Below are positions 39,466 to 41,838 of a stretch of 64,000 bases of DNA, piece by piece. The notes beneath the pieces are model-generated. The model was not told the DNA's origin. It saw only the letters and a program-made list of their open reading frames with translations, and searched no databases. How positions within the stretch are numbered: position 1 is the stretch's first letter; each line of letters opens with the position of its first letter. The position numbers were made by a program, and so were the translations under genes. Source of the stretch: Mesorhizobium sp. (GTDB lineage Bacteria > Pseudomonadota > Alphaproteobacteria > Rhizobiales > Rhizobiaceae); assembly GCA_019635735.1 (NCBI GenBank), contig JAHBYX010000007.1, forward strand, positions 1 through 64,000, read 5' to 3'.

Positions 39466-40674
39466 TCAGCCCGCCGCGCGCCCAGCCTCCGGCCCGACAT
39501 AGCGGGCGCGGGGGCGGATGAGGATGCCGGACTGGAGCTGCTCGATCGCGTGCGCGATCCAGCCGGAGGTGCGGGCGATGGCGAAGAGCGCCATTTCGTG
39601 GCCGACGGGCAGGCCCAGCGTACGCATGAGCACGGCCAGCGCGTAGTCGATGTTCGGATAGAGGCCCGTCGCTTCGGTGACGAGGCGCGGGACGTGGACG
39701 ACCAGGCGCGGGTGGGCACCGGCGGCGGAGAGGGCGCGCAAGAGAACGTCGGCACGGGGATCCCCATCGACGTAGACGGTGTGGCCGAAGCCGGGAATCT
39801 GCTCGCCCAGCGCCACGCGATCGGCGATTGACGCTGCCACGTCGCCATCGCCGAGTTCGGCAACCATGCGGGCGGCGAGCGGCCCGGCGCCGCCATGGCG
39901 CGGACCTTTGAGCGCCGCAAGGCCGGCGATGACGGCGTCGTAGAGGCTGACGCCGGTGGAGGCGGCGCAGCGCGCCGTCCAGGTCGAGGCGTTGAGCTCG
40001 TGATCGGCGAGGAGAACCAGCGCGCGGCGCAACAGATCCTCCGCCGCAGGGTGATCCTTCGCCCAGGCGGATGCGACCTGCCGATGGATCGGCAGGGGCG
40101 AGGGGGCCGTGCCAAGGATCGCGGCGGTGACGAGGCGCATGACGCGGGCGCCGGTTGCGGCGCGGCCTTCGGCCGAGCGGTTGTGGGCGCGCGGATCGGC
40201 GTCGGTGGCGAGCGCGAGGACGGCGATGGCGCGGGGCAGGGGCTTGGCCTCGTTGGCCGCGGCGAAGATCGCCCGCATCGCGTCGTCGAGCACCGGCATG
40301 TTGGTGGCGTCGAAGGGATCGGCGCGGCGAGCGTCCCAGAGGAGGGTGGCGGCCTGTTCGACGGTCGCGGCCTCGGCCAGCGCAACGACGGGCACGCCGC
40401 GATAGATCGGGCCAGCCTCGGTGATGGTGGCGACCGTCGTGTCGAGGACGGGGATGGCCGCTTCCGCCGAGGGCTGAACGGCGCCGGACGACCGGCGGCG
40501 GGCGCGCAGCGCGCGGATGTCGTCGGCGCGGTAGCGCCGGGCACGGCCGTCGCCCACCGGCTCGGAGCGGACGAGGCCACGGCTGACATAGGCATAGAGG
40601 GTGGCCGGCGAGACGGAGAGCTCGGCAGCGGCTTCGCGCGCGGTGAGGAAGGCGGGGGACGAGACGGTTTTCAT
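39466..40674 (-). CDS. Citrate-synthase-like protein with N-terminal HTH
   Basis: 402 residues from the ATG at 40674 (MKTVSSPAFLTAREAAAELSVS). Residues about 8-55 form a MerR/excisionase-type helix-turn-helix (FLTAREAAAELSVSPATLYAYVSRGLVRSE then RRYRADDIRALRARR). The rest is a citrate-synthase fold with NASTWTAR, His in GPRHGGAG, His in GFGHTVYVDGDPRAD and the catalytic Asp in PNIDYALAVL. An enzyme fused to a DNA-binding domain suggests a metabolite-sensing regulator, possibly of the divergent gene and of itself. It may keep citrate or 2-methylcitrate synthase activity. A repeat array lies in the shared promoter region. Confidence 0.9.
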   Translation of the reverse strand: MKTVSSPAFLTAREAAAELSVSPATLYAYVSRGLVRSEPVGDGRARRYRADDIRALRARRRSSGAVQPSAEAAIPVLDTTVATITEAGPIYRGVPVVALAEAATVEQAATLLWDARRADPFDATNMPVLDDAMRAIFAAANEAKPLPRAIAVLALATDADPRAHNRSAEGRAATGARVMRLVTAAILGTAPSPLPIHRQVASAWAKDHPAAEDLLRRALVLLADHELNASTWTARCAASTGVSLYDAVIAGLAALKGPRHGGAGPLAARMVAELGDGDVAASIADRVALGEQIPGFGHTVYVDGDPRADVLLRALSAAGAHPRLVVHVPRLVTEATGLYPNIDYALAVLMRTLGLPVGHEMALFAIARTSGWIAHAIEQLQSGILIRPRARYVGPEAGRAAG

Positions 40675-40675
40675 A

Positions 40676-40706
40676 TTGATCAAGATAATCAAGATTGATC
40701 AATGAT
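40676..40706. promoter_or_regulatory. Repeat array in the divergent citrate-synthase promoter region
   Basis: Two copies of the palindrome TTGATCAA lie at 40676-40683 and 40695-40702, 19 bp apart centre to centre. Read as direct repeats, ATCAAGAT occurs at 40679 and 40688, and a related ATCAATGAT at 40698. The array begins 2 bp from the start of the HTH-citrate synthase gene and is the obvious candidate operator for that protein. It does not fit the FNR spacing. Confidence 0.6.
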
Positions 40707-40749
40707 GGAAGAGGCCTCATCTTGCTGCAGTGCAGCAGGAGATTTGACC

Positions 40750-41838
40750 ATGACGATCCATTCCAATCCGGCCGCCGGCCTGGACGGCGTCGCCGCAGCG
40801 GTGACGGCGCTGTCGCATGTCGACGGAGAAAAGGGCGAACTGATCGTCGCCGGATCGAGGATCGGCGAGCTTGCCGATCGCACCGATTTCGAGGGGCTGG
40901 TGGCGCGGCTGTGGGCTGCCGCGACGGGGCGGGAGGTCGACGCGGCGGAGGCGAGGCGACGGCTGGCGCGGGGGCGTTTGGCGGCCTTCGAGCGGCTGCC
41001 GGCCATCCTGCCCGCCACGGCAGGGATGCCGATGGTCGACGCCTTCCGGGTCGCGGTAGCGGCGGTCGCGCCGGTGGAAGGACTGGAGGCGGAGGCGGCA
41101 ATCGTCGGAGCGATGCCGGTGCTGGCGGCGGCTTTGGTGCGCCAGGCGGAAGGTCGGGCGCCGGTCGCTCCCGATCCGGACCGCGGGCACGCGGCCGACC
41201 TGCTGAGGATGATGCGCGGGGATGTCGCGAACGCGGAGGAGGCGAAGGCGCTCGACGCCTATCTCGTCACCGTCGCCGACCACGGCATGAACGCCTCGAC
41301 CTTCGCCGCGCGCGTGGTCGCCTCGACGCAGGCGAACCTGTTCATGGCGGTAACGGCGGGCTACTGCGCCCTGACCGGGCCGCTGCATGGCGGAGCGCCG
41401 GAGCCGGTGCTCGACATGCTCGACTCGATCGCCAGCAAGGACCGCATCGCCGGCTGGATCGACGAGGCGCTGAAGCGCGGCGAGCGGCTGATGGGCTTCG
41501 GCCACCGCATCTACAAGGTGCGCGACCCGCGCGCCGACGTCCTGAAGCGCGCCGTCGAACGGCTGGGCGGGCGTGGCACCGACCTCGGCTTCGCGGCGGA
41601 GGTGGAGGCCTATGCGCGGCGCGCGCTGGAAGCGGCAAAGCCCGACCGCCGGCTCGACACCAATGTCGAGTTCTACACGGCGATCCTGCTCGACGCGCTG
41701 AAGATCCCGCGCCGCGCCTTCACGCCCGTGTTCGCAGCCGGGCGGAGCGCCGGATGGACGGCGCACGCGCTGGAACAGCAGCGGACGGGGCGGCTCTTGA
41801 GGCCGAGTTCGATCTACGCTGGCGCCAAGCCGGAGTGA
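40750..41838 (+). CDS. Citrate synthase family protein
   Basis: 362 residues from the ATG at 40750 (MTIHSNPAAGLDGVAAAVTALSHVDGEKGELIVAG); codons further upstream are in the repeat region. The short form of citrate synthase is seen, with HGMNASTFAAR, His in GPLHGGAPE, His in GFGHRIYKVRDPRAD and the C-terminal FAAGRSAGWTAHALEQ. The usual catalytic Asp (NVDFY in common citrate synthases) is Glu307 here (TNVEFYTA). It may condense acetyl-CoA or another acyl-CoA with oxaloacetate. It is divergent from the HTH-fused homologue, which probably regulates it. Confidence 0.9.
   Translation: MTIHSNPAAGLDGVAAAVTALSHVDGEKGELIVAGSRIGELADRTDFEGLVARLWAAATGREVDAAEARRRLARGRLAAFERLPAILPATAGMPMVDAFRVAVAAVAPVEGLEAEAAIVGAMPVLAAALVRQAEGRAPVAPDPDRGHAADLLRMMRGDVANAEEAKALDAYLVTVADHGMNASTFAARVVASTQANLFMAVTAGYCALTGPLHGGAPEPVLDMLDSIASKDRIAGWIDEALKRGERLMGFGHRIYKVRDPRADVLKRAVERLGGRGTDLGFAAEVEAYARRALEAAKPDRRLDTNVEFYTAILLDALKIPRRAFTPVFAAGRSAGWTAHALEQQRTGRLLRPSSIYAGAKPE

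Follow-up and report, generated by a model that had tools for sequence, protein, structure and literature searches.

A citrate synthase-fold protein with a MerR-type helix-turn-helix and a conserved predicted operator beside its own gene

The window analyzed here, the whole stretch of 64,000 nucleotides from a Mesorhizobium sp. contig, contains two divergent genes of the citrate synthase family that share a 75-bp intergenic region. Four genes with a Citrate_synt domain were found in the genome: a full-length one on contig C1, the two genes of this locus, and a short one on contig C19. The features of the locus are as follows.

39466..40674, minus strand: helix-turn-helix–citrate synthase fusion (HTH-CS; P0001), 402 aa
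40495..40650, minus strand: winged helix-turn-helix domain, residues 9–60
39508..40455, minus strand: citrate-synthase-fold domain, residues 74–389, with H225, H260, H298, R307, D343, R368, and R387
40676..40697, minus strand: predicted conserved compound operator CAATCTTGATTATCTTGATCAA, based on conservation and a single copy in the genome
40676–40692, minus strand: dyad TTGATT-N5-GATCAA within CAATCTTGATTATCTTGATCAA
40676..40683, plus strand: first TTGATCAA palindrome of the initial annotation
40695..40702, plus strand: second TTGATCAA palindrome of the initial annotation, overlapping the −35-like box of the divergent gene
40695..40700, plus strand: −35-like box TTGATC of the divergent citrate synthase gene at the operator edge, followed by a 17-bp spacer and based on a positional peak over 77 loci
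40718..40723, plus strand: weak −10-like box CATCTT of the divergent gene
40723..40737, plus strand: a further palindrome, TGCTGCAGTGCAGCA, fitting the published PhaR (AniA) core YGCRNYGCR
40737..40741, plus strand: Shine–Dalgarno sequence AGGAG of the divergent gene, from the sequence
40750..41838, plus strand: CitA-type citrate synthase encoded divergently (PRK12350 family; P0002), with Glu at the position of the catalytic Asp (NVEF)

The likely start codon of HTH-CS is the ATG at 40672–40674, which is separated from the predicted operator by 1 bp. It was preferred to the TTG start of a mechanical open reading frame list, which falls inside the predicted operator. At the N-terminus of the protein, Pfam HTH_17 (residues 9–60) and MerR_1 (residues 11–58) both scored above their cut-offs, with PF13411 reaching 27.6 bits against a cut-off of 21.6, as for a MerR-type winged helix-turn-helix (HTH). 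The remainder matched Citrate_synt (PF00285; residues 74–389) with 220 bits, and the catalytic His/His/Asp residues are present as H260, H298, and D343. The fusion of a MerR-type HTH with an intact citrate synthase fold, proposed in the initial annotation, was thus confirmed. The recognition helix TLYAYVSRG is nearly invariant across phyla and ranks among the best conserved parts of the protein.

An AlphaFold2 model of HTH-CS (37-member alignment) had a mean pLDDT of 86.9. In this model, residues 12–62 form a helix-turn-helix, a beta wing, and a short helix (50–62), followed by a low-confidence linker (63–76) and the citrate synthase fold. Structures of 2-methylcitrate synthase and of citrate synthase aligned with the modeled citrate synthase part over approximately 320 residues, with Z scores of approximately 33. 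The nearest structures were 2-methylcitrate synthases (3o8j and 6s6f), and PrpC, the closest solved protein in both fold (Z 33.5) and sequence (identity approximately 26–28%), has no HTH, unlike HTH-CS. None of the NCBIfam enzyme cut-offs was reached by HTH-CS, the best being TIGR01800 with 178 bits against a cut-off of 421. Relatives on plasmids, where annotated, are named “citrate synthase family protein” or “citrate/2-methylcitrate synthase.” The divergent gene product matched PRK12350 above the cut-off. Its Glu at the catalytic Asp position is shared by 47 of 51 CitA-type partners of HTH-CS relatives and occurs natively in Bacillus subtilis CitA (2c6x).

The repeats described previously in the intergenic region, two TTGATCAA palindromes 19 bp apart and additional ATCAAGAT copies, are indeed present. 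The starts of the palindromes, at 40676 and 40695, are 19 bp from each other, and the ATCAAGAT copies are at 40679 and 40688. TTGATCAA occurs three times in the window, where shuffles give an expectation of 0.30, and the individual words are just modestly unusual. When the locus was compared with 80 relatives, GTCAATnTTGATT-N4/5-AATCAA, read on the HTH-CS strand, was kept immediately upstream of the HTH-CS gene. What is conserved is a single minus-strand compound dyad, TCAATnTTGATT-N4/5-AATCAA, and not the TTGATCAA pair, so that the “own repeat array” of the initial annotation gives way to the single compound operator CAATCTTGATTATCTTGATCAA. Matches to this operator were absent from 100 shuffles of the window, even when one mismatch was allowed, and the 4.96-Mb genome contains one exact copy.

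The motif with up to four core mismatches was found directly upstream of HTH-CS in 77 of the 81 loci, which came from Pseudomonadota, Chloroflexota, Acidobacteriota, Gemmatimonadota, Myxococcota, and one Latescibacterota bin (six phyla); no good match was found at L035, L039, L066, and L084. In 651 kb of remaining DNA from the same loci, there were no matches with zero or one mismatch and one with two. Five plasmid loci left out of the motif definition all carried the motif (four exactly and one with one mismatch); one of them is on pAt of Agrobacterium fabrum C58, where HTH-CS is ATU_RS25370, and another on a plasmid from Deinococcus. The same motif precedes HTH-CS in at least seven bacterial phyla. 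The expectation that the repeats are kept near orthologues held for the compound dyad, which is a different element from the TTGATCAA pair.

The association between motif and gene was determined in 190 evenly drawn alphaproteobacterial genomes with the exact 22-mer alone. The 22-mer was present in 16 genomes and HTH-CS in 22, with both in 14 (Fisher p = 6e-14, with related genomes counted as independent), and all 14 exact sites in the genomes with both lie directly upstream of HTH-CS. A reversed-pattern control gave zero throughout. All 22 HTH-CS genes have the motif if up to three core mismatches or a shifted spacer are allowed, as in the eight genomes without an exact site, which show one to three core mismatches or another spacer (G066, G182, G040, G091, G126, G178, G186, and G148). 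The HTH-CS gene of G148 is broken by contig ends, and the operator adjoins its HTH half. The relaxed pattern also gives scattered chance matches in genomes without HTH-CS. Conservation at orthologues and rarity elsewhere, as expected of a dedicated operator, were thus both observed. Most Reyranella-type operators have the right arm altered to AATCCA or AATACA. No clear change in the recognition helix accounting for these arms was found, and Reyranella-type proteins differ at many flanking and wing positions (e.g., S12 and Q43).

The position of the motif relative to the divergent promoter was analyzed at 77 loci. ATTGAC is the reverse complement of the left edge of the motif, and −10-like hexamers were scored at every offset from TTGAC at the operator edge. 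The score peaked sharply at a spacing of 17 (mean −0.57 compared to about −4.3 elsewhere), followed by 16, indicating that the left edge of the motif is the −35 of the divergent gene. Near-consensus promoters occur at some loci, such as TTGACA-N16-TATAAT at L042, and the boxes in the window (TTGATC, N17, CATCTT) are weaker than these. By arithmetic, the dyad centre lies near −46 of the predicted target promoter, a position compatible with both repression and activation; we consider repression of the divergent target somewhat the more probable effect, with activation a serious contender. A −35/−10 pair for the own promoter of the HTH-CS gene was sought, and none could be defined. In the window, 1 bp separates the end of the dyad from the ATG of HTH-CS, so autorepression is likely.

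The commonest partner of HTH-CS relatives, found at most loci, is a divergent CitA-type citrate synthase. The divergent gene encodes a class III CoA-transferase in Paraburkholderia, a Rhizobium, and Azospirillum. In Chloroflexota, its product is an HMGL-like protein most similar to homocitrate synthase, in Deinococcus it is annotated as pyruvate carboxyltransferase, and at other loci it encodes GltA or a cupin. On an HTH-CS gene tree (a quick tree with some long branches), partner identity requires at least eight changes and the N4/N5 spacer three. The partner changes while HTH-CS and the motif persist, and the motif thus follows HTH-CS and not the neighboring gene.

Individual partners showed further features. 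The Chloroflexota proteins at L049:2564–3868 and L041:2279–3691 are homocitrate-synthase-like DRE-TIM enzymes, and it is conceivable that such a partner acts as a Re-type citrate synthase. At L046:2979–3857, in the Latescibacterota bin, a transposase-like gene replaces the divergent citrate synthase, and the operator and divergent promoter are identical to those of the Gemmatimonadetes locus L042; this partner is possibly the result of an insertion or of mis-binning.

The residues listed above for the citrate-synthase-fold domain (H225, H260, H298, R307, D343, R368, and R387), which we take to be substrate-pocket residues by correspondence to pig citrate synthase, are nearly invariant among HTH-CS relatives, and the catalytic residues are intact in 74 of 80 members. 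Most members could thus be catalytic, and HTH-CS may also, or even mainly, be an enzyme. H298 or more was lost in L016, L035, L073, L080, and L066. The substitution is H298Q in L016, L073, and L080, all of which retain the HTH and the operator, and L073 and L080 adjoin a cupin gene, not a citrate synthase gene. Because the H298Q members keep both DNA-related elements, regulation by HTH-CS seems to be independent of catalysis. The preserved substrate pocket and the kinds of gene in the regulated position point to metabolite sensing. The Dictyobacter member L066:4001–5230 carries H225N, H260S, and D343E, has a degenerate operator, and neighbors a gene of the carboxymuconolactone-decarboxylase family.

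Overall, HTH-CS is very likely a local autoregulatory one-component regulator with the citrate synthase fold as its sensor, and comparative genomics strongly supports the earlier proposal that it binds DNA and regulates its own locus. Sequence comparison supports the domain fusion, the operator, the one-to-one association of operator and gene, the −35 position, and the exchange of targets. From these, we infer that the MerR-like winged HTH binds the compound dyad beside its own start codon and that the citrate synthase domain serves as a dimerization platform and ligand sensor, for which the most likely ligand would be oxaloacetate, citrate, or a short acyl-CoA. The targets of HTH-CS in the window would be its own gene and that of the divergent CitA-type citrate synthase, whereas the module would control a different carbon-entry or acyl-CoA enzyme in other lineages.

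Among the alternatives, a trigger enzyme of the PutA kind is possible, though not likely: HTH-CS would then be an active (methyl)citrate synthase with DNA binding as a second role, and turnover or substrate occupancy would switch it between the two. Most members conserve the catalytic triad and the substrate arginines, which fits this possibility, as do the 2-methylcitrate synthases as closest structures; the members that lost H298 or more, three of which retain the operator (L016, L073, and L080), and scores well short of the cut-off in all enzyme equivalog models argue against it. It is very improbable that the conserved element is instead a structure in an RNA leader or a site bound by a different regulator. 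In the HTH-CS transcript, its arms could pair as a short hairpin rich in AU, and the window dyad stops 1 bp short of the ATG, but the distance from motif to start codon ranges from approximately 2 to more than 80 bp across loci, the motif edge coincides with the −35 on the divergent side, and nearly all genomes with the exact site also have HTH-CS.

The CitA-type partner at most loci and its Glu in 47 of 51 cases would also suit a hetero-oligomeric citrate synthase, in which HTH-CS is a subunit alongside the divergent protein and the HTH is a structural relic. We regard this as very improbable, considering that other lineages have a CoA-transferase, an HMGL-like protein, a cupin, or GltA as partner instead, that the recognition helix is so well conserved, and that the Glu is native to B. 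subtilis CitA.

In B. subtilis, too, a CitA-type citrate synthase gene is paired divergently with the gene of a regulator, CitR, which is a LysR-type protein without a citrate synthase domain. The CitR–CitA pair thus shares with the HTH-CS locus the divergent arrangement and the natural Glu of the enzyme (2c6x), whereas the regulators differ in the citrate synthase domain. The N-terminal winged HTH of HTH-CS belongs to the same family as that of MerR regulators, but the effector domain differs, being a citrate synthase, and the long antiparallel coiled-coil helix is absent from the model, where the short helix 50–62 leads into the linker. The operators of MerR regulators lie inside a −35/−10 spacer of 19–20 bp, whereas the HTH-CS dyad lies upstream of the target −35 and the spacer peaks at 17 (or 16) bp. 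MocR/GabR regulators, in which an HTH is fused to an aminotransferase fold, likewise place a metabolic-enzyme fold as sensor behind an HTH (PMC6917764), but the HTH family, the enzyme fold, and the ligands are different. The Streptomyces coelicolor genes SCO5831/SCO5832 (citA3/citA4) are two citrate-synthase-like genes that share an intergenic region investigated for its MtrA sites; in passages of that report, SCO5831 is treated as a citrate synthase and not as a regulator, and the intergenic arrangement is shared with the HTH-CS pair (PMC12323332).

In the literature searched, which includes few subscription journals and is weak evidence in this respect, no description of HTH-CS or of a citrate-synthase-domain protein as a regulator was found. 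Enzyme-fold sensors are known from other folds, and the citrate synthase version was not among the systems found there. Few bacterial regulators are known that directly sense the point of entry into the TCA cycle. The proteins annotated as “citrate synthase family protein” probably include a cross-phylum regulator family, in which a central-carbon enzyme fold, possibly still a catalyst, is used as a ligand sensor and reads oxaloacetate or acyl-CoA at carbon-entry promoters via an operator whose conservation extends from Proteobacteria to Chloroflexota and Deinococcota. If so, the family would be a sensor built from the very enzyme of TCA entry, for which an operator sequence is already available and the test system is simple; the annotation of many such proteins would be corrected, and a natural biosensor for oxaloacetate, citrate, or acyl-CoA might be available.

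The first base of the palindrome TGCTGCAGTGCAGCA, which the initial annotation missed, is also the final base of the −10-like box preceding the divergent citrate synthase gene; the palindrome lies between this box and the Shine–Dalgarno sequence. Within it, TGCAGTGCA matches the PhaR core YGCRNYGCR, which was defined in Sinorhizobium meliloti, where a PhaR site was predicted at gltA too and citrate synthase was reported to be repressed (PMC12542648). The genome contains four exact copies of TGCTGCAGTGCAGCA, with zero for the reversed control; the others are near a phbB-like gene (L092), a PaaI-type thioesterase gene (L093), and a solute-binding-protein-like gene (L091). The genome also encodes PhaR (PHB_acc; C12:331607), a few kb from a phbB-like gene and one other such palindrome. 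The palindrome in the promoter and the presence of PhaR in the genome suggest control of the divergent citrate synthase by PHB storage via PhaR, and the 75-bp intergenic region may combine two inputs, a citrate synthase-type signal and PHB storage. The palindrome is recognizable in the close relatives L005–L008 and L011.
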